Source: Yarrowia lipolytica | Taxonomy: Eukaryota; Ascomycota; Dipodascomycetes; Dipodascales | Assembly (NCBI RefSeq): GCF_001761485.1 | Contig: NC_090772.1 | Span: 2,168,501-2,232,500, forward strand | Length of the DNA stretch: 64,000 nt | Reading direction: 5' to 3' | In this document: positions 3,836-35,590 of the stretch, piece by piece | How positions within the stretch are numbered: position 1 is the stretch's first letter | Layout of the letters: each line of letters opens with the position of its first letter | Made by a program: the position numbers and the translations under genes | The notes under the pieces: model-generated | Database searches by the model: none | Told to the model about the DNA's origin: nothing | Seen by the model: the letters and a program-made list of their open reading frames with translations, nothing else

Positions 3836-4651
3836 ATGTTCACATTCACAATTCCATCGGAATCTATCAGCTACGGATATGCAGTGTTCCAGTCTAAAGG
3901 CGATCTTACACAGCTCAACATCGAGGTTACTGGGTCCGAAGGCGAACATGTGTTCTCAGTGCGAATCAACAAGGGTCTCTTGAAACAGCATAAGTATCGA
4001 CGAAACAAGGAATCTGACGAGGATTGGGAAAAGGTAGTGCGGTGGGTTTTTACGGGCGAAGCCGGAGAGGGATTTGAAGCAGAAAGCGTGATTACTCAAT
4101 GCTCATACGATAGCATGGACAAATCTTTGAGTGTATCAATCCGAAGGAGAAAAAGCGACGGCATTGTCGCCCGACTGGGTGATATCGAATTGAAGGAGAC
4201 GTCAACAGGTGATCCGGATCTCATGACATGGGTACGTAGTATCGACGAAAGTAGAACGAACGTTCAGAAGACTCTACGGGAAACGCGTATCCAGACAAAC
4301 ATGTATAAGGGGCGATGCGTGGAGTTGGAGAAGCAATTGCAGAGCCTCATAGCAGAGAAGAGGAGATATGAGAAGGAACTGGTGAACAAGTTTTCGGCTC
4401 TCTTGAATACAAAGAAGAGAAAGATGCGTCAGTTCGAAGGGGAGTTTAGCGATGGATTCGGCGACTACGTGAAGAAGGAGGAATTCGTCATTCCTGAGTT
4501 AGCTGAAAAGGTCGAGCATCTCCCGCCTTTCAAACCCAACTCACCTGCAATGATGGTGAAGGAGGAAGAGACGATCTCGGAAGGCCTTCTTAACCCTGAC
4601 CCAAAGGAGCCCATCGAACTGGATTCCGATGCCACAGTCGAGAGTGATTAA
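3836..4651 (+). CDS. LIF1: XRCC4/Lif1-type NHEJ ligase cofactor
   Basis: This is likely the partner of DNA ligase IV (Dnl4/Lig4) in non-homologous end joining in the nucleus. The 271-residue protein has a beta-rich head (about residues 1-130), a long charged helix predicted to be a coiled coil (about 135-205), and an acidic tail. The segment KFSALLNTKKRKMRQFE near residue 185 closely matches the XRCC4 helix that ends in a lysine-rich patch. The tail ends in acidic residues around IELDSDATVESD, which resembles a SUMO-interacting motif. I chose the ATG at 3836 (MFTFTIP) because upstream in-frame codons look like untranslated leader. It lies downstream of PEX1 on the same strand. Lif1 proteins diverge fast, so the assignment rests on architecture and the helix motif. 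It is shorter than S. cerevisiae Lif1. Confidence 0.72.
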   Translation: MFTFTIPSESISYGYAVFQSKGDLTQLNIEVTGSEGEHVFSVRINKGLLKQHKYRRNKESDEDWEKVVRWVFTGEAGEGFEAESVITQCSYDSMDKSLSVSIRRRKSDGIVARLGDIELKETSTGDPDLMTWVRSIDESRTNVQKTLRETRIQTNMYKGRCVELEKQLQSLIAEKRRYEKELVNKFSALLNTKKRKMRQFEGEFSDGFGDYVKKEEFVIPELAEKVEHLPPFKPNSPAMMVKEEETISEGLLNPDPKEPIELDSDATVESD

Positions 4652-13183: not shown

Positions 13184-13528
13184 TCATGGTCCAACTTGGC
13201 ACGTACCTATTTCCAGTAAAAAAATCATAAAAAAACCTGGTTCAGTCCGTGTTGTATGTTGGTCCACATAGCTTCGCGTGTTTGTTCGTTCATCGGGAAA
13301 ACGCCACTCCAGTCTCCAGTTCTCTAATCTCAATCCTTCCATTGCCCTCTTCATTTGCATTGCCTTTGAAAACTTCTCCTTGTGGTTCTTCTTCGTCATT
13401 GGTTTGGTTCTGCGTCCCCTGTGGTGACTACGCGCCCTGCTACGCTGTTCTCTCGGTGGCCTCGGCCGCCTTTTACGCTTGCTACTGTGTCTACTCTCGC
13501 TCATCGTGAAGTGCTGGCGGTTGTCCAT
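13184..13528 (-). CDS. Possible LINE ORF3, small basic protein
   Basis: A 114-codon frame begins inside the end of ORF2 and fills most of the supposed 3' untranslated region. Its second Met (13504) overlaps the ORF2 stop in the string ATGAGCGAGAGTAG, an arrangement similar to the tight ORF1/ORF2 junction. The product is rich in Lys and Arg (KRKRRPRPPREQRSRARS, HHRGRR), like a nuclear localisation or nucleic-acid-binding segment. A charged amphipathic stretch (MEGLRLENWRLEWRF) follows. I know of no ORF3 described for this family. Chance openness over 340 bp is possible, so comparison with other copies is needed. Confidence 0.35.
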   Translation of the reverse strand: MDNRQHFTMSESRHSSKRKRRPRPPREQRSRARSHHRGRRTKPMTKKNHKEKFSKAMQMKRAMEGLRLENWRLEWRFPDERTNTRSYVDQHTTRTEPGFFMIFLLEIGTCQVGP

Positions 13529-16500
13529 CGTAGAAACACATCTGGGCTTCCTTCAGGAATTGAAGCAAACCCTGTTGGACATGTCCCAGGGTGGCGTCGT
13601 CCCCTGAGTACCGGAGGGATCTCTCCATCTTCCAGATCCCATAAGCCAATTCCCGCAGATATTTGCGTGTCTTGACTTGTTGATGTTTCCGGGGGGCGTC
13701 ACTGTTCACATGCCCTGGGAAAGAGGGGAGTACTCCACATTTCGACTCGGTAAAGATCCAGTCCTTTAGAGAGTCCACTGACGGAATCTTCATCCTGGTC
13801 AACATGGAAAGAAGAACTTCGCACTTGCAGAAGATATGCTCGTGCAGATCCTGAATGATGGCCTTATCACAGAGCCCGCATCCTGGATTCTTCTTGGTGA
13901 AAACGTGGTCGTCAGGGTATCTCCATTTCACGAGCGGAAGTCGAGATATCCGCATGAGGTGAAGAACTTGTGCTTTGTTGGCGTCGGCGATGTAGTGTTT
14001 TCGAAGGTCATGCATTACCTCCTGCCAGACCATGTCGTCAGAGATGCCCCCGTAGTCGCTTCGTTGAGTCCACTTCTTCGGTCGTGCAAGTGTGTGTGGG
14101 AAGTTTGGCAAGTCGGGAGACGAGGTCTTGTGAAACATGAAGTTCTCTAGAGTAAGTGGTCCCATGCTCCACCGGAGGTGGTCGATTTCCGCTGTGGACA
14201 CCATTCTGACCGGATGGTATCGTCTCGCGGCTGCGATGTCGACGTGTGCTTCCCGGAAAGATTCTGCTGCTCTCACGTTCACCTGGTTTCGTTCCCAGAT
14301 TCTGTGATTAACTGTGTCTGTTGTAGAGGGCTCGTGATCTTCTCGAGGGTTGGCATGTTCCGCGGTGAGGGGCTTGTTGAGCTCGAAAGAAGCTCTGATT
14401 GCGTCTCGCATGGTGGGGGAGGCTGCGTAGCCCCAAGCTTGGCCTGTCGGAAAGCGGCAGTCGACGCGCTGGTGTGGCTTTTCCTGTGTGAGACTGTGAG
14501 TTCTGCTGTAGAACTGGAAGGTGCAGTCCCAAAGGGCCGGCGATGAGCCATGGAAGAACCTGTAAGCCCGAGCGGCCTTCAGGCACACCATGAAACGTCC
14601 CATGTCCCGCAGGTTCAGTCCTCCTCTGCCTACCGGAGTTTGGATGAAACCATTGCTGAAGGTTTTGCGTGTTTTGTCGGGTGATAATTTGTTGATCTTG
14701 TCGCACGCTAGTTCGTTCAGCTCTCGGATGAAGGTGTTGTCGATCTGGCTGACGTAGGGTCCAAGGAAATTCAGTTTCGAGAAGAAGTAGATGTTGATCA
14801 TCCACGCCTTGCTGTAATAGGGGAGACCCCATAGTGAAAGGCGTCGCAGCGACTCCTTGAGGTCCTCCTTGATCTGAGCGTAGTGCGTGTCCAACCTTTC
14901 GCGATTTCCGAAGTGTACTCCGAGGTACCGGAAAATGTTGTCAGATGTCCGGAGCGTCGGGGCCTGTCGTGTGTTGTTGTCGGTTGGCCAGGTGGCGTCA
15001 ATTGTTCGCTGCCATTCTGCGTCAATAAAGGTTAGTGGAACAAAACAATCGGGGGGGCCGATCTTCTGAAGCACCGTCTTTGACGGGTTTAGTGTGAGGC
15101 CTGAGACCCGTTGGAAGAGGCAGAGCACTCTACCAACCGTGGCCACGTCCTGGATGTTGTTGAGGAACACCGCTATGTCGTCCGCGAAAGCCGACACCTT
15201 CATGTGTCCAGCTGCCACTGCCTCCGGGTGAGTAGGGGGTTGTGGCGGCCTGTGCCCAGTGGTGTGGTGGTGGGATAGTGGCAGGCCTGGGGCCAGTCCA
15301 AACATCTCTCGGTCCAGACGACGCACAAGTGCGTCTACTGCGATGATGAAGAGGGTTGGAGAGAGAGGGCATCCTTGTCTCACTCCGATCTTGATGCGGA
15401 CTGGGCGAGATAGGACACCTCTGATGTTGATTCTCGTTACTGCGTTCTGTTGTACAGCTAGGATACGGTTGATCATCAGTTCCGAGACACCCACATTTCG
15501 AAGCGTCTTTATCACCCAACTCTGGCTGATAGTGTCGTAGGCTTTCCGGAAGTCCAGTGATCCTACGACCCAACCCATGTTCAGCTGGGAGTAGGCGTTG
15601 CAAAAATGATCCATGGTGTCGAGATTGTTAGTGATGTGTCGACCCGGTACGAAACCGTTTTGGGCGCCGTGAATGCTGTCCGGAAGAATGTTCTGGATGG
15701 CTTTGTTAATGAGCTGTGTGTAGATCTTCACCTCTGTGTTGATCAAAGAAATAGGCCTGTAGTTGGAGATGTCGGCCTGATCTCCCGACTTGTACAGTAG
15801 TTTGATGATAGCGGTGTTGCGTTCGGTGCTGATGGGCGAGTCGGCTCCAGCTTCGTTGTAGACGTCCGTCATCAAGTCCCCCAGCTCATCCCAGCAGTCG
15901 CGGTAGAACCTGTACGGGATGCCGTCTGGCCCTGGCGCGCTGTTGTGCGTAGACGCCTTGATGGTATCGAAGATCTCCTCCTTGGTAAAAGACGAGTCCA
16001 GGCTTGGGTTAGCTGTATTCACCCTCCGGGTTTCTTCGGGGAAGAGGTCTAAAAAGGCGCTGTCGTCGGTGTCGTTGATATCGGCAGCTCTGTCGAAGAT
16101 GTTGTCAAAGTATCGAGCTGAGATGTCGCAGAGAGAGGAGGTGTCGGTCTTCACTCGGCCTTGGTGGTTCCGTAGGGAGTGGATCTCCATCTGTTGCTTG
16201 GATTGTTCGACCCGAGCATGGAGCATCGGGTATGGCTCGTTAGCTGGGTAGGCTTGCCAGTCTGAGGCTGTTGCCATGAGGGCCTCGCGGCGTCTGTTGT
16301 CTGGGTGGTTGGAATCTCGAAGTGCGCGGTTTTTGGCTTCCTGTTGGATGGTGACCTTAATGTTTTCTTTCAGGCATTGCAGCTTCAGGCTGGGCTTCAA
16401 AGGACCATATCGCTTCAGAATGGATTTGACGTGGAACTTGAGCCAAGCAATGTACTCTGTATCAAAAACCCACCAGGGCATCCTCCAGGTGCCTGGGCCT

Positions 16501-17393
16501 CTGTCTTGTCGCTGGGTGAGGTTGCCAAAGTTAAAGACGAATTGGACCGCGTGGTGAGAGGACTTCGTGATGTTGTGACCCTGCTTGTTGGTTACCAGTT
16601 GTGTGGATTTGATCCACTGTGAGAGTGTCGAAGAGATGTGCAGCTGATCCAGGCGCCTGCCAGCTCCGCGGCTGTTGTTGGTGTGAGTGTAGAGGCCTTT
16701 TCTGTGTTTGCTGATTAGAGTGTAGGTGTCTAGTAAGTCCCAGTTAGCTAAGAAGTCCTTAAGGTGAGTCGTCACTTTTTCGCCAATCCTGCCGTCGTTG
16801 GAGGCGACCGCGTTCCAATCGCCTGCCGCTATCAGGGGGTATTGGCAGGGATGGAGGCGTAGATAGTCGTCTAGTGACTGGTAGAACTGCCGGTTAGTGA
16901 AGGGGGAGGCTCCCTGCTCGTTTGGTGCGTATACGTTGATCAGCGATAGGTGTCTGTCGGTGCCTTTGATGTGCACGTCGGCCAAACACAGTCTGTTGTC
17001 TAGGGCTGGGAAGTATTCAAAAACTGTTGTAAAGTTTGTGATGGTGACGTTGTCGGAATAGACTAGCCCCACGCCGACGCTTCTATTAGAAACACCAGCT
17101 GTGGAGCCGAGGAGGGTGTAGTGTCTGCCCCCCGGGTAGGGCGAGTTTGAAATGATTTGTTGAGCGGTTTGTAGGGAGGAGTCCACCCAGTTCGTCTCTT
17201 GAAGAAGGACGAGATCGGGGTAGTGAGTAGTTCGAATAATGTTTACAATGGTGTCGGGTAATCGGTTAAGCGCTTCCGCCATCTTAAAACCGCCGATGTT
17301 AGCCGTGATGACTTTAACATTCGGAGATTTCATTTTGGCCTGGGTGCTCTTACATGGGGCTTTAGAAGGGGTGGTAGTAGAGGTGAAAGACAT
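13491..17393 (-). CDS. LINE ORF2: endonuclease and reverse transcriptase
   Basis: The 1300-residue polyprotein carries an AP-type endonuclease at about residues 25-290, with Glu66 in QETNW, GDWNA at 191-195, RRLDQLHIS near 246-254 and SSHHAV near 279. These match the L1 endonuclease that nicks target DNA. The reverse transcriptase spans about 470-780, with SNYRPISL, the aspartate in GSLDFRKAYD (614), VRQGCPLSP, and the catalytic FADD at 736-739. A C-x2-C-x8-H-x4-C zinc motif lies at about 1172-1189. These are the parts needed for target-primed reverse transcription, and no key residue is missing. Translation likely follows ORF1 by reinitiation, since the ATG begins two bases after the ORF1 stop codon. 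Met21 is a possible alternative start. Confidence 0.95.
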   Translation of the reverse strand: MSFTSTTTPSKAPCKSTQAKMKSPNVKVITANIGGFKMAEALNRLPDTIVNIIRTTHYPDLVLLQETNWVDSSLQTAQQIISNSPYPGGRHYTLLGSTAGVSNRSVGVGLVYSDNVTITNFTTVFEYFPALDNRLCLADVHIKGTDRHLSLINVYAPNEQGASPFTNRQFYQSLDDYLRLHPCQYPLIAAGDWNAVASNDGRIGEKVTTHLKDFLANWDLLDTYTLISKHRKGLYTHTNNSRGAGRRLDQLHISSTLSQWIKSTQLVTNKQGHNITKSSHHAVQFVFNFGNLTQRQDRGPGTWRMPWWVFDTEYIAWLKFHVKSILKRYGPLKPSLKLQCLKENIKVTIQQEAKNRALRDSNHPDNRRREALMATASDWQAYPANEPYPMLHARVEQSKQQMEIHSLRNHQGRVKTDTSSLCDISARYFDNIFDRAADINDTDDSAFLDLFPEETRRVNTANPSLDSSFTKEEIFDTIKASTHNSAPGPDGIPYRFYRDCWDELGDLMTDVYNEAGADSPISTERNTAIIKLLYKSGDQADISNYRPISLINTEVKIYTQLINKAIQNILPDSIHGAQNGFVPGRHITNNLDTMDHFCNAYSQLNMGWVVGSLDFRKAYDTISQSWVIKTLRNVGVSELMINRILAVQQNAVTRINIRGVLSRPVRIKIGVRQGCPLSPTLFIIAVDALVRRLDREMFGLAPGLPLSHHHTTGHRPPQPPTHPEAVAAGHMKVSAFADDIAVFLNNIQDVATVGRVLCLFQRVSGLTLNPSKTVLQKIGPPDCFVPLTFIDAEWQRTIDATWPTDNNTRQAPTLRTSDNIFRYLGVHFGNRERLDTHYAQIKEDLKESLRRLSLWGLPYYSKAWMINIYFFSKLNFLGPYVSQIDNTFIRELNELACDKINKLSPDKTRKTFSNGFIQTPVGRGGLNLRDMGRFMVCLKAARAYRFFHGSSPALWDCTFQFYSRTHSLTQEKPHQRVDCRFPTGQAWGYAASPTMRDAIRASFELNKPLTAEHANPREDHEPSTTDTVNHRIWERNQVNVRAAESFREAHVDIAAARRYHPVRMVSTAEIDHLRWSMGPLTLENFMFHKTSSPDLPNFPHTLARPKKWTQRSDYGGISDDMVWQEVMHDLRKHYIADANKAQVLHLMRISRLPLVKWRYPDDHVFTKKNPGCGLCDKAIIQDLHEHIFCKCEVLLSMLTRMKIPSVDSLKDWIFTESKCGVLPSFPGHVNSDAPRKHQQVKTRKYLRELAYGIWKMERSLRYSGDDATLGHVQQGLLQFLKEAQMCFYDGQPPALHDERE

Positions 17394-17395
17394 GC

Positions 17396-19540
17396 TTACT
17401 GGTTCTGCCCCGGTCGGAGCATTGTGTCCACCTCATGGAGAGTGGTCACCCTAGGGGGGTTCGGGGGACTGTTCGGGGGTTCTACAATCTCGTCTACCGA
17501 GCTGAGTGTCGCACCGTCGTGGAAAACTTTGAAGTGGCATGTAGACAGGAATGTCGGGCACCTCCCGTCAATGAACTTTGCTACCTCCTGAGAAGGCAGC
17601 CAGCAGAGTCTGTTCTCCGACCTGTCCGGGTTCAGGATTTGCACCGGAACCTCGCTCGAGGCGGTCTGGAAGACCGCAATGTGCTTCTTGCCGAGCGTGG
17701 TGTGAGAGGGCTCGCCAGAGAAACTGGAGGTGGTGTGCCCTCCTCGGGGTCGGCCCTCGTGGATACTTCCGGGGGGGGGTTGTGTTTGGTTGGTCGTGTT
17801 GGGACTGGTGTGGTCGTGGGGAAGGCCGTTGTTGGTGGCCTCGGTGTTAAGCGGGGTAGCGGGGGGAAGAAACTGGGTGACATCAGGGGCTACTTCAGGG
17901 TGAGCAAGTGCGTCAGGCTGGGTGTCAAAGCCGTTCATGGATACGTCAGCCTGTTCCGTTTCCTGGTCGTCGGGAACTGTGTCTTCCTCGGAGGCGGGGA
18001 TGTTGATGGGTAGATTCTGAGTTCCATGCTGCTGGTTCGTAGAGGGCAGCTGGTTAGTTTGCTCGGTCTCTTCGGGTGTGTCCTCTCCGGTTTTGTCGCT
18101 CAAGACTTCAAAGTTGTAGTAAGATCGGAGGGGCTTCTGACCGGTGGGTTGGGGGGACGTGTCTCGAGTCCGTCTATGTCTAGGGGACTTAGTGCCGACG
18201 GTCTCCCACTGGTGAGTAGCAGGCGTGTGGTGGAACTTGCGAGTTTGGACCGGGGGCTCCACGGTGGATGGGGCATGGATGGAAGCAAGGGCTTTACCTC
18301 TCTGTGGGAGGGTACCCTGGTGAGCGCGGGTGCGGAAGATCTTGGGAGTGACCATGTCTTTCTCGGGGCAGGCCTCCCGGATGTGCTTAGTGCTCTTGCA
18401 CTTAACACAGATGTTATCGCCGTTGGCGAAGTGCATCTTGATCAACTTTGAGCCGGTAAGCCTAGCCTTGGTGGGATCCAGGTTGACGAAGAAGTCGGGG
18501 ATGGTCTGGGGCAGGGTGGAGCCTAGGAGAGCACGAACTGCGATCACAGGACCCGAGATGTTCTGATGGTTGGCAGAGGTCATCAGAAGGGTGCCACTCA
18601 AGAGGGAGGAACCTGGAATGGCCTGATCAATGTCTACGTCGAACTGGTTGAGAATAGCGTTGAGGTGGATCTTGAAAGCATCCTCCGTCTGACGCTCCAT
18701 CTTCATGTACGAGGGTAGGTTGAAGTAGTAAAGTACTCTTCGTCCAGCAGGGTTAGCCGAGCCCTTCCTCATGATGCGATAATCTTGAGTATTGGCCTCA
18801 ACAATGAGACTAACTGTCTCCAGAATGACAGCCATTCGTTGTTCGTGGGGGTCAGTGAGGGCGTCCGACGTCAGGTAGTGCCAACCATTTCCCACTTGGT
18901 AGCAGTCTTCAGGGTCCTGTTCTAAGTTAATCTGGTCGATCAGGTGGGGGACGATGTCTAGGTTGTGCCTGGACAGGTCAAACTCCGCCAGACCAACCTG
19001 ACCCTTGATCTCGTCGAACTTTTCGATGACGCCCTCGAGGACACTGATGGTGTCCTTCTCGTCGACTTCAGCGGCGTTATCGAGGTGCTCGAGGAACATG
19101 GAGATAGGAAGATTCCAATCAGGGGTGGCGGAGCGGTCAAGAGCTCTTCGGAAGAAGTTTTCCTTGCTGGCTACATAGGACACGTTGAAACGGCCGGAGG
19201 TATGCCTACCATTCGGCGCCGCAAGGGGCTCCGAAATTCGCTCCTTGTTGAGGTTGAATTTGAGTGTGGAGGGGTTCGATGTCAGGAGAGCCTTGACTTC
19301 GGCCTTGCTCTTCCAGGCGTTGAGGGTGATATTGTTGTCGTTTTTTTTGTCGTTTTTGTCGTTTTTGTCGTTTTTTTTGTTGTTTTCATCGTTTTTGTCG
19401 TTTTTTTGGATTTTTTCAATGTCGGTTTGGTTGGGGGTTTCGGTTGAGGTGGCTCCATCACCTCGCGATAAATCAGGAGGTGGGGGGTTCGGAGCGCCCA
19501 AGGAGTTACCCGCCGAAGCTTGGGCTTGCGCTGTTTCCAT
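17396..19540 (-). CDS. LINE ORF1: RNA-binding protein with zinc knuckle
   Basis: The 714-residue protein is the expected nucleic-acid chaperone and RNP component of the LINE. It has an Asn/Lys/Asp repeat at about residues 45-71, a globular central part, and one CCHC knuckle (CVKCKSTKHIREAC, residues 378-391). A long Pro/Thr/Ser-rich C-terminal half follows. The stop codon TAA is followed after two bases by the ORF2 ATG. The Met at 19540 is used because upstream in-frame sequence lies in the short leader. No RRM or L1 trimerisation coil is obvious by eye. Confidence 0.9.
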   Translation of the reverse strand: METAQAQASAGNSLGAPNPPPPDLSRGDGATSTETPNQTDIEKIQKNDKNDENNKKNDKNDKNDKKNDNNITLNAWKSKAEVKALLTSNPSTLKFNLNKERISEPLAAPNGRHTSGRFNVSYVASKENFFRRALDRSATPDWNLPISMFLEHLDNAAEVDEKDTISVLEGVIEKFDEIKGQVGLAEFDLSRHNLDIVPHLIDQINLEQDPEDCYQVGNGWHYLTSDALTDPHEQRMAVILETVSLIVEANTQDYRIMRKGSANPAGRRVLYYFNLPSYMKMERQTEDAFKIHLNAILNQFDVDIDQAIPGSSLLSGTLLMTSANHQNISGPVIAVRALLGSTLPQTIPDFFVNLDPTKARLTGSKLIKMHFANGDNICVKCKSTKHIREACPEKDMVTPKIFRTRAHQGTLPQRGKALASIHAPSTVEPPVQTRKFHHTPATHQWETVGTKSPRHRRTRDTSPQPTGQKPLRSYYNFEVLSDKTGEDTPEETEQTNQLPSTNQQHGTQNLPINIPASEEDTVPDDQETEQADVSMNGFDTQPDALAHPEVAPDVTQFLPPATPLNTEATNNGLPHDHTSPNTTNQTQPPPGSIHEGRPRGGHTTSSFSGEPSHTTLGKKHIAVFQTASSEVPVQILNPDRSENRLCWLPSQEVAKFIDGRCPTFLSTCHFKVFHDGATLSSVDEIVEPPNSPPNPPRVTTLHEVDTMLRPGQNQ

Positions 19541-22563: not shown

Positions 22564-23802
22564 CTATAACTGCAGTGGGCCGTCCAGCCACTTTGTGAAG
22601 TTGGCGTTACCAGGATTCTTCCACCAAATGACGTTAAGAGTGTGGTCAACCCGTGCTACAAAATTTTTGACAAAATCGGACCCCAGGATTGCATCTTCTT
22701 CCATACCTTCAACAACGTAGAAGCGAGTCAGCAGGTTGATATTGTCGATCTTGAAGAAGAGCAAAATGGAACCCACACCACGTACACCCGGGTCATCGAA
22801 CTCGATCTCAGCAAAATCCACCATTCCTAACATGTTAGTGCTCTCAAGAATACGCACAGAGATGGCTGAGACAGGGGAAGAGGGGGAGAAGAGGGCCGAG
22901 TAAGTGAGTCTACCACGAATTCGAAACGGAATAAAAGGGCGATGGTCAGAGGGAACCCCATCAGATTTCTGCCCACAATTTTCCTCCCTGGTCGAATCTC
23001 TGACTTCATTTTCTGTTTTAGGCTTAATACTGGGGGTTGATACAAGATCAAAGAGATAGTCGCACTCTTCATCACCATCAGATTCGTATTGCGGAATTTC
23101 GGGAAGCGGGTGAGGTGTAGTAGGCGAAGCTAACTCTTCCCGTACAGAAGTCTCGAGATTCGGTTTCATGATGGTTTCTCTGGTCATGGTTTCGGTGGCG
23201 ACGCCGTCTTGGTAGACACGCTCAGTAAGGATGGTTTCCATAGCGACTCCATCAAAACCCTGAGCAACTGGCTGCTGTGTTGTCATCAGTCCTGCCCTAC
23301 CGTCTGGAGAATTTTCTTTGTGCAACTCTGTGACTTCGTCGAATGCACCTTCTCCATGCTGATTCACGAGCTTCACCCATACGTTCTTGTATCTCAACCT
23401 CGCGCCCTTGACATCCAGCTTCAGGTTCAACGAGGCCAGAAAGTCAGATCCCAGAACGACCTTTGGGGTAATGTTGTTAACAACGTAGAAGCAATGAGAG
23501 AGTGCAAACTGACCCATGTTGAAGTTCAGAATCAATGTTCCGATGGCTTGGATTTCAGTGCTGGTCGAAGATCCTCCAGGGCGGCTGATGACAGTGCCCT
23601 CTCCATCGATTTCGAGGTGCTGAAAGAGCCTGTGTTCGACGAGAGTCCTTCTGTCTACCAGAGAAACATTTGAATGGGGTGATATCAGAGCTCTGATTTT
23701 GATACCCTTCTTTGGTTTAAGGGCGACTTCAACAAAAGGTGACTGTACTAGATCATCTGTGCCGTCGAGCTTGTAGCAGGTGTAGGGTTGTGTGTAGTCC
23801 AT
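22564..23802 (-). CDS. Protein with two retropepsin-like domains
   Basis: The 412-residue product appears to contain two copies of a retropepsin-like fold, at about 23376-23751 and 22600-22930, joined by a Glu/Thr/Pro-rich linker. Each copy ends with the LGSDF-type segment (VVLGSDFL and ILGSDFV) typical of the aspartyl protease of Ty3/gypsy-type LTR elements. I see no integrase, reverse transcriptase or LTRs around it. The frame is open over its whole length, so it may be a co-opted host gene rather than a resident element. A catalytic motif is not obvious, so protease activity should not be assumed. I prefer the Met at 23802 (MDYTQPYTCYKL); an in-frame Met at 23973 would add 57 residues that look like leader. 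Confidence 0.55.
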   Translation of the reverse strand: MDYTQPYTCYKLDGTDDLVQSPFVEVALKPKKGIKIRALISPHSNVSLVDRRTLVEHRLFQHLEIDGEGTVISRPGGSSTSTEIQAIGTLILNFNMGQFALSHCFYVVNNITPKVVLGSDFLASLNLKLDVKGARLRYKNVWVKLVNQHGEGAFDEVTELHKENSPDGRAGLMTTQQPVAQGFDGVAMETILTERVYQDGVATETMTRETIMKPNLETSVREELASPTTPHPLPEIPQYESDGDEECDYLFDLVSTPSIKPKTENEVRDSTREENCGQKSDGVPSDHRPFIPFRIRGRLTYSALFSPSSPVSAISVRILESTNMLGMVDFAEIEFDDPGVRGVGSILLFFKIDNINLLTRFYVVEGMEEDAILGSDFVKNFVARVDHTLNVIWWKNPGNANFTKWLDGPLQL

Positions 23803-23973
23803 TAGTTGACGATTATCAGTGAATTGAGTGAGTTGAACAAACTGCGAAAGGATACCAACAGTTGCTTTTGTATCGTATGAGATTAATTCTTTCAATAGCC
23901 TATAATGTATGTGTATGTATAACAAATGGTGGTACGATAATATACTTCGTAGGAGTTTGTGAGCAATGGCCAT

Positions 23974-32348: not shown

Positions 32349-35300
32349 CTATACGCCGTTGTAGGCTATCTTGTTAGGTGAGTTCTTCAGATCACCCTGA
32401 ATTCTACCATCATTGCTGTTCATGATTCTTGACTCGAGCTCCGCAGGAGTTAGATCTTTGGTACCTTCCTGACTCATCAAGTAGCCGGCAATTCCGGCCA
32501 CCATAGGAGTAGCAAATGAGGTTCCGGATCCGATTCCATATCCATCATTAGGAGTATTCATAGAGGACATAATATCAGAACCAGGGGCAAAGCCAGTAAT
32601 ACACGTTCCCCAAGCAGTTCCCTTGTTGTTTCCAGCGTAAACAGATAATTTGTCGCTTCTGTCAATTGAACCAACCGTAACAGAACCAGGGGTAGAGGTG
32701 GAAACTCGTCCCGGAGAATTGTTGCAAGCATTTTCCATGTTGTTTCCGGCAGCAATAGCAACAAACATACCTTCAGCAACAGCCTGCTTAATCAAAGAAT
32801 CTAACGCAGTAGATACGTCTCCACCAAGCGACAGATTCAACACAGCTTTCTTACCTGGAGTGGTGTCAGCCTTGAAATCATTAATGGCACGAGTAATACC
32901 TGACATAAGAATAGACGCGTCGGTAGTCTCGCCAGAAAATACCTTGATACTCTTGACTTGCAGGTTGGGGTCCACACCTGATCTGGTGCCAGCTACAACA
33001 CCTGCCACAAATGTTCCATGGCCATTGGCATCAGAGTCGTCACTGTCAGCATAATTCGCAAGCCAAATGGGTTTGGTCGCAAAGTTATCGTGATTGATAT
33101 TCACGCCTGAATCAACGACGTACACGACCACCTTGGGATTGGGGTCCACAAACTGTTGGTGAATATATTCTCCTACCATGGGATCTTGGTAGGGAGCCAT
33201 CTCAGGCGACTGGTGAGAAATACGAGAGAGACCCCAAGGCATGCCTTGTTGCGTAACAAGTGGGAGGGGAGCGCTAGAGCTAGAGGAAGAGCTTGAGCTA
33301 GAACTGGAACTGAGAGAAGTGGAACTGGAAGAGCTTGAGCTGGCACTGGGAGAACTAGAGCTGGAGCTGGAAGAACTAGAGCTGGAGCTGGAGCTGGGAA
33401 AACTAGAGCTGGGAGCTGGAGCTGGGAAGCTGGGGAACTTAGGCTGGAGTGGAGCTGGGGGAACTAGAGCTGGAGCTGGGGCGGGGAGAACTTAGAGCTG
33501 GAGCTGGGAAGCTGGAGTGGGGAGAACTGGAGCTGGGGAGCTGGAGCTGGGAGAACTGGAGCTGGGAGCTGGGAGAATAAGAGCTGGGAGAACTAGAGCT
33601 GGAAGAACCGGGGTTGGAAGAGCTGGGAGAGCTAGAGGAAACTGGAGAGCTAGAGGAAACTGGGGCGGAGCTACTTGAAGGCCTACTTGAAGGGCTAGCG
33701 GAAGAGCTTGAAGGGAGAATCGTACTGGAACTGCTGGAGCCACTAGAAGAGGTGGGAGAGGTGGAAGAGGTCACCTCCGAGCCGGTAATGGTACCAGAGT
33801 TAGAAGGCGTTGTACTGCCAGAGTTGGGCGTTGTAGATAACACAATTGGACTGATGAATTGAGAATCCGAAAATGCAATTGAATCCAAAGACTGACTCGA
33901 GTTGGTAAGAATGGGTGACGAGCTAGCAGATGATTGAGACAATTGAGTGGACTCGACTGCGGTAGGAGTTGAGTTAGAAACACGAATGTCATCGATGAAA
34001 GAGGTGACATCGTTGCCACTTTTGTCGTTTCCGTTGATGTTGTTGCCATTGTCGTTGCTGTTGCTGTTCCCATTGTTGCCGTTGTCGACAGCTGTGTTTC
34101 CGTTCGATCCAGAGCTGCCATGGTTGGAGCCTGTAGGAGAGACTGTGTTAGGTTTTTTTCAACTCAATAAACCATGATGTTCTTACTCACCTTTATTACT
34201 GTTTGTGCTGGTCATTGTGTGATCTTCGGTGAGCTTTCGAATCACATAGTATGTCTTGGTACAGCCGCAAGTAGGCTCGTATGTGGGTGTAGCTGTGTCA
34301 GTATGAATTACTATGAAGGGTTGCCAAAATATTAGAGCGCTCTGTCGACTGAGCAATGCGCCACTTATAGCTCAAAATCTTCATCGCCAAGCCAAACTTA
34401 TTCTCTGTCATCATAACGGATACTCACGAATGGCCACACACGGCTCTCCTTGGTCGTCAGTGTAGACGATCACGGCCTCAGCACGGTCACCGGTAATGAC
34501 ATCATTGTCATCAATGTTGTTGTTGCTGTTGACATTGACGTTGTTGTTGTCATTTGCGTCGGCTTCTGTGTTAGTAGGATGGTGGGCCCGGGGGTTTGTG
34601 CTGAGGTACTCACTAGCACCAGCTGTGGTGGGTTCGGCCAATACTGTGTTAGATGGGATTCCATTGTGTGTGCGAAAGCAGAAAATGTGATTTTTTTTTT
34701 TTTTGCTTAAAAGCTCTCTGCTCTCTGCTTTACTCACGGGTGTATCCGGCGTGTTCTGTGTTAGTATGGTGAAGAGGGTAATTTTCGTGCTGCACCCATC
34801 CTGTCTCGATAAGCTTATTTATGGTATCGCAACCTTAAATATGCACCGCTTGTTCTAGCCACCAGCAGTGGATGACTTTAGAACCCAACAGACAGGATGA
34901 ATAACCAGCGACCATGCTCCAGGTGTTCGTAACAACGCATTATTACCTCACACACTCACTCAAAGTACTGGTAAAGGTGATGGTTGATGTAATGGTCGTA
35001 GCTTGTCCATCAACGGATGTTACACCAATGATCTCAGTAGTAATAGTAGCCACTTGGACTTTGCTGTCACCAGTAGGAGCGGACAATTCCGCCAACAGAT
35101 CATCATCATAGAAGGGCTCAAATCCAGGCTGCCCATAACCAGGGAGCTGATCACAGTAGACAACACCATCTGAATTTCGCTCTAGTGAGTCCCACAAGTA
35201 AATTTTTCCGTCAGGCTCAACGAGAGCAAAGGGAAGATGCTCCACTGCTTCAGCCACACTCTCATCGAGTACAGCCGCAACTCCAATAATGGTAGGGTTT

Positions 35301-35590
35301 TCAGGACTCTCAGACAAATCGAAGTCAGCAGTAATGCCTTGTTCGGACTTTCCTGCGACCAGGTTGTCGATGGAAGAAATGTGCTGGGAGATGTCGTCAA
35401 TTGAAGCACCAGGGAAGGAAATAATGAATGACTTGGTATCGGGAGAGACCTGTCGTTTGCTAATGACGTGCTCCAACTTCAAGCTGTGCTCACGGACAAT
35501 CGACTTGATGGATTTGTAAGCCTCTGAGGGGTGAGAATTGGCTGTGGTGAAAAACACCAAGCCAAACAGGACAAATTTGCTGAACTTCAT
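32349..35590 (-). CDS. Secreted XPR2-like subtilisin, six exons, frame break in hinge
   Basis: This is a proteinase-K-type serine protease related to the alkaline extracellular protease XPR2. Exon 1 (35590-34960) encodes a signal peptide (MKFSKFVLFGLVFF) and an I9 propeptide (SFIISFPGA to VEPDGKIY) that lines up with the XPR2 proregion. Exons 2-5 are 34755-34738, 34643-34614, 34565-34428 and 34292-34191. Exon 6 runs from 34142 and encodes an Asn-rich then Ser-rich hinge and the protease. The protease has catalytic Asp in VVDSGV, His in GHGTFVAG, Asn in AAGNN and Ser in GTSFATP, and ends SPNKIAYNGV like XPR2. It starts near VTQQGMPWGLSRISH. The hinge and protease are in different frames, so this copy is interrupted in the Ser repeat (about 33440-33500). 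That may be a pseudogene, a strain polymorphism or an assembly slip. No Lys-Arg Kex2-type site precedes the mature domain, unlike XPR2. Confidence 0.78.
33270..33740 (-). repeat. Ser-codon tandem repeat in the protease hinge
   Basis: Degenerate copies of a short unit made of AGCTCC and TCTAGT words encode long Ser runs with Pro and Ala. Small insertions and deletions shift the frame locally, producing Gln/Leu and Pro/Ala readings between Ser blocks. The upstream hinge frame stops at 33439, while the protease frame meets a stop near 33492, so neither frame spans the repeat. Confidence 0.8.
34143..34959 (-). other. Five introns of the XPR2-like gene
   Basis: Introns are 34959-34756 (204 nt), 34737-34644 (94), 34613-34566 (48), 34427-34293 (135) and 34190-34143 (48). 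Every one starts GTGAGT. Four end CTAACACAG and one (34293) ends CTGACACAG. All interrupt the frame after the first base of a codon, and internal exons of 18, 30, 138 and 102 nt are all multiples of three. The joined reading frame stays open through all six exons to the Ser hinge, which strongly supports the model. Confidence 0.85.

Follow-up and report, generated by a model that had tools for sequence, protein, structure and literature searches.

The window, which is the whole 64,000-nucleotide stretch of Yarrowia lipolytica DNA analysed here, lies on chromosome C and carries on its minus strand a gene predicted to have six exons and five clustered introns (Table 1). Elsewhere in the window, two long minus-strand open frames at 13491-19540 (714 and 1300 aa) resemble those of a LINE-type retrotransposon, and a 469-aa minus-strand frame at 22564-23973 contains VLGSDF and ILGSDF stretches, which we take to be retropepsin-like and possibly to mark a domesticated protease. 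The gene under study is this genome's copy of YALI0C15532g, which encodes a subtilase resembling XPR2, since published primers map gene by gene to their own loci: 30 of the 32 primers of Table 5 in PMC10095220 matched the genome exactly, and all 16 alkaline-protease genes were found at separate loci. The two remaining primers were the YALI0C15532 forward primer, which has a single mismatch and lies within the gene under study, and the YALI0A10208 reverse primer, which was absent from its own locus in a search allowing up to two mismatches. Within the literature searched, YALI0C15532 is named only in PMC10095220, and a term search inside the text of that paper returned no mention of introns.

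Table 1. Features of the YALI0C15532g copy, in window coordinates
Feature	Position	Strand	Length	Description	Basis
Exon 1	34960..35590	minus	631 nt	ATG at 35590; ends in phase 1; signal-like start, KR at residues 45-46, I9-like propeptide, then linker	content: paralogue alignment, model
Published YALI0C15532 qPCR primers (exon 1)	35321-35340; 35142-35161			one mismatch; exact	primer mapping
Intron 1	34756..34959	minus	204 nt (3n)	in-frame stops; GTGAGT...ATACTAACACAG	
Exon 2	34738..34755	minus	18 nt		
Intron 2	34644..34737	minus	94 nt (3n+1)	in-frame stops; GTGAGT...CATCTAACACAG	
Exon 3	34614..34643	minus	30 nt		
Intron 3	34566..34613	minus	48 nt (3n)	without in-frame stop; GTGAGT...CTACTAACACAG	
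Exon 4	34428..34565	minus	138 nt	Asn/Asp-rich	
Intron 4	34293..34427	minus	135 nt (3n)	in-frame stops; CTGAC, weakest branch point of the five; GTGAGT...ATACTGACACAG	
Exon 5	34191..34292	minus	102 nt	two Cys	
Intron 5	34143..34190	minus	48 nt (3n)	in-frame stops; GTGAGT...AACCTAACACAG	
Exon 6 and stop codon	32349..34142	minus		Ser/Thr-rich linker, then protease domain; no single open frame in the assembly	
Frame-slip cluster in Ser-rich tandem repeat	33411..33564	minus		seven slips	codon-frame model
Peptidase S8 (subtilase) domain, PF00082	32412..33134	minus			Pfam, E 2.7e-35

The sequence-only reading, which had rightly attributed the DNA to Yarrowia, had placed five introns at 34143-34959, and these were borne out base for base on the minus strand, all in phase 1 when counted from the ATG at 35590. 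The internal exon lengths that it gave (18, 30, 138 and 102 nt, four of four multiples of three) were correct, and the exons all lie, as it had proposed, within the linker that joins the propeptide to the protease. The donor is GTGAGT in all five introns, and branch point plus acceptor read CTAACACAG in four of them and CTGACACAG in intron 4, so that a CTAAC is fused to the acceptor in four cases and a CTGAC in the fifth; a GTGAGT donor with a CTAAC branch point fused to the acceptor is the published consensus for the species (PMC2911113, section 6). The minus strand of the window has 20 occurrences of GTGAGT and 6 of CTRACACAG, and the 817-base stretch that holds the introns contains five of each; 5000 first-order Markov resamplings of this stretch gave means of 0.29 (largest 5) and 0.02 (largest 1), respectively. 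The splice signals are far above chance. The exons also score as coding and the introns do not: the used frame had the highest codon score in 6 of 6 exon stretches tested (exon 5 being slightly negative, -0.25), and all five introns scored zero or below in that frame. Measured along the spliced sequence, the introns lie between 23 and 34%; about 60% of Y. lipolytica introns are reported in the first 10% (PMC2911113).

Two five-intron genes have been described in the species, one of them on chromosome C (Mekouar et al., 2010; PMC2911113). The latter is unnamed in that text but is probably YALI0C15532g, the gene studied here being on the same chromosome, and the gene structure may therefore already be annotated. 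The other, YALI0F32043g, likewise has five short introns, with published in-frame variants (PMC2911113), but is unrelated to YALI0C15532g as judged by its description alone, and the candidate nearest to it by chromosome position only (C6:3966990 and 3967304) has short exons measuring 28 and 65 nt, neither of them a multiple of three.

The predicted protein consists of a probable propeptide, a linker and a protease domain. The PF00082 match scored 122.5 bits against a cut-off of 21.8 and covered positions 3-273 of 288, and the protease open frame contains DSG, HGT, GTSFATP and AAGNN motifs, which we take to be those of the catalytic Asp, His and Ser and the oxyanion Asn. The nearest solved structure to the catalytic half was A. 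fumigatus Alkaline protease 1 (8gko, E 5e-44). Exon 1 aligned with the propeptides of the paralogues, with the KR conserved (BLAST E 6e-5). Pfam gave no I9 match in the N-terminal half, and the propeptide assignment is based on the paralogues and the modelled fold. A single-sequence fold model of exon 1 was poor (pLDDT 36.5) and a paralogue alignment was used instead; with it, residues 20-127 were modelled confidently as strand-helix-strand-strand-helix-strand. The best foldseek match by probability (0.97, with a weak E of 0.035) was the 93-residue chain of 8gkq, an entry for A. fumigatus alkaline protease, taken to be the prodomain of that enzyme. In the linker stretches checked, the RK in exon 5 is the sole dibasic pair. 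The genome (20.5 Mb in six contigs, searched for paralogues, linker copies and splice patterns) yielded no second copy of the linker, either as DNA (817-base stretch, in a search that skips simple repeats) or as protein, where all four matches lay inside the gene under study. A mobile intron source was rejected on the same DNA search. Exon duplication as the main origin was also rejected, a repeat search having returned only short Asn-codon repeats shared by exons 4 and 6 and short similarities around acceptor sites.

Sixteen other S8 loci were compared with the gene. In 13 of them (L011-L023) a single open frame runs from a Met start through the S8 domain; in L010 and L024 they do not, and L009, with a longer open frame, is taken to be a kexin-like protease. 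A tree of 16 S8 loci placed the gene beside XPR2 (L016) and YALI0D02981 (L020) with support of 93/93, a position that must be called unsure, as the support was left unstarred by the tool and the branch is long (1.59). XPR2, which encodes AEP (YALI0F31889g), resembles YALI0C15532g in its signal-like start, propeptide KR and S8 domain, with 46% identity in the catalytic part. It differs in being a single, intron-free open frame that lacks the long linker, and in having a second KR ahead of the mature domain, absent from the C15532 stretches checked. In L022 (YALI0F24453) we observed a possible short C-terminal intron (minus-strand 4167-4222 of the fetched locus) with a GTAAGT donor and TCTAACACAG as acceptor; this putative intron may count against describing the paralogues as intron-free.

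We favour, at a probability of about 0.6, the reading that the gene is a subtilase of the XPR2 branch with introns that lie in a low-complexity linker, are spliced constitutively and were gained with that linker, any isoforms being low-level slips. The long linker between an I9-type propeptide and the catalytic domain would thus hold five ordinary spliceosomal introns. These would most likely be spliced out constitutively from any transcript of the gene, because the splice sites are strong, and would most likely have been gained together with the linker, because nearly all of the paralogues are intron-free. Arrival of linker and introns in the YALI0C15532g lineage would be the simplest reading.

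The sequence-only reading had overlooked a break within exon 6: the frame that follows from splicing ends near 33440, and the protease domain lies in a different one, open from 33491. Its term "secreted protease" stands in so far as the product is a predicted secreted subtilase (signal peptide, SignalP 0.9897; PMC10095220, Table 2), but the spliced frame stops ahead of the protease domain, and the term therefore assumes that the break is not real. The seven slips were placed by a codon-frame model, run with a single parameter set and trained on clean sequence flanking the repeat in the same stretch, an eighth slip at the edge of the stretch being disregarded, and tandem arrays occur within 33285-33608. 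An extra intron restoring the frame of exon 6 was rejected, as a motif scan of 34142-33050 returned no GTRAGT-type donor or CTRAC-type acceptor that would join the frames. The likeliest cause would be a faulty assembly consensus in the repeat. If instead the break were real, the gene would be decaying, its protease no longer made and its introns and exons relics. The stop near 33440, seven slips inferred within only 154 nt and the long branch in the S8 tree fit such decay, as does the RNA-seq record, which marks YALI0C15532g as NE (understood to mean not expressed) in each of the five conditions covered: oleic acid, glucose, tributyrin, YPD and YPD pH 4 (PMC10095220). However, all the slips fall inside a tandem repeat, a kind of sequence in which reads are difficult to position; both exon 1 (631 nt) and the protease frame, 297 codons from 33242, are still open, the splice signals are near perfect and the full-length S8 match is retained; the gene is also counted among 16 putative proteases, and not as a pseudogene, in PMC10095220. 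We consider decay, the main rival to an assembly fault, unlikely.

The frame-neutral lengths of the internal exons and the common intron phase are one surprise and not two, because introns that share phase 1 leave internal exons that are all multiples of three. From the published phase shares of the species (40.2, 38 and 21.8%; PMC2911113), the chance that five introns are all in phase 1 is 0.008, and that they share any single phase is 0.019, or 0.037 when both five-intron genes known from the species are considered. One common phase in five introns is thus only mildly unlikely, and under the favoured reading the shared phase would be mostly a mild coincidence, maintained since the frame must be preserved. 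What coincidence leaves unexplained is the excess of introns that are themselves multiples of three, four of five against 29.4% genome-wide (P 0.029). This excess, which puts exons 3-6 in one genomic frame, would be expected had the introns been carved by new splice sites out of a continuous coding linker, so that frame and phase were inherited. The stop-free intron 3, near neutral in frame (-0.03), and the intron-free paralogues with proline-rich linkers (L013, L014 and L017) point in the same direction. Against such intronization, introns 1, 2, 4 and 5 have in-frame stops and clearly non-coding scores, and intron 2 is 94 nt long. We regard it as quite improbable, and prefer gain of the introns together with the linker.

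The remaining question is whether exons 2-5 act as regulated cassettes, skipped in combinations such that the protease hinge varies from 0 to 96 residues. The proposal that any exon could be skipped without loss of frame held: a sense codon is formed at each of the 15 possible exon junctions, and the 16 exon combinations give 16 different linker lengths. The same account had overlooked intron 3, the retention of which would also keep the frame and add 16 residues, because it is a multiple of three and stop-free; stop-free introns are rare in the species (88 of 1,083; PMC2911113). A genome-wide census of the pattern CTRACNCAG, 4-158 nt, GTGAGT (GTAAGT donors falling outside it) returned 176 hits versus 59 with a reversed control pattern, so that about a third of the hits are noise. 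After 11 nested hits were dropped, 165 remained, and runs were defined as neighbours within 1000 bases, strand ignored. Four of the spans belong to the gene under study, and the census contained no second run of four short internal exons. Runs of two occurred at 12 further sites, and nowhere else in the genome did this pattern detect a run of more than two such exon-like spans. One of the other pairs, at C6:2440948-2441111, again consists of an 18- and a 30-nt exon-like span in the same order, a likeness in length only. The other 161 spans were distributed 59/56/46 by length modulo 3, without enrichment of multiples of three, and short exons in the genome are therefore not generally frame-neutral, which counts against cassettes in this gene, as does a single shared phase that could arise by chance (0.019, or 0.037 over two genes).

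In-frame skipping is known in Y. lipolytica. The GND1-like gene YALI0B15598g also has a short exon that is a multiple of three, the 39-nt exon 2, and the skipped form is the major one by cDNA count (46 vs 2; PMC2911113). That exon, however, has suboptimal sites (PMC2911113), whereas the sites here are strong, with consensus signals throughout bar the branch point of intron 4. Across the species, exon skipping was reported in only 4 genes versus intron retention in 76 (PMC2911113). The NE record of YALI0C15532g likewise speaks against cassettes. On spent grain, 7 of the 16 proteases were expressed (PMC10095220). The literature searched on Yarrowia exon skipping contained no title about YALI0C15532g, and the cassette-exon idea for this gene was not found in print there. 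Exon skipping that gives sets of working proteins is rare in budding yeasts. Cassette skipping in this gene is possible but unsupported, and we judge regulated use of the exons very unlikely; the gene appears silent in the conditions tested and its splicing is probably ordinary.

With constitutive splicing of a newly gained linker as the preferred reading, isoforms, if there are any, would most likely be low-level slips. Two would be likeliest: a product that lacks the 34 residues of exon 5, the exon most apt to be skipped since the branch point of the preceding intron 4 is CTGAC, and one that keeps the stop-free intron 3 and so gains 16 residues. That five one-phase introns, four of them multiples of three, were gained within the new linker of an intron-poor yeast and now supply up to 16 tether-tuning lengths, or more with intron 3 retained, is the boldest of the readings and very unlikely. 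If it were true, linker length would tune the tethering of the propeptide to the catalytic domain, and the dibasic pair of the linker would come and go with exon 5 by itself.

We conclude that the gene structure is real and locally unusual, and that an ordinary explanation is likely. Intron gain in budding yeasts is hard to catch, and five clustered introns beside intron-free paralogues make a good case for asking when and how yeast introns were gained. The gene is also suited to asking how faithful splicing is for short in-frame exons that encode a disordered linker.
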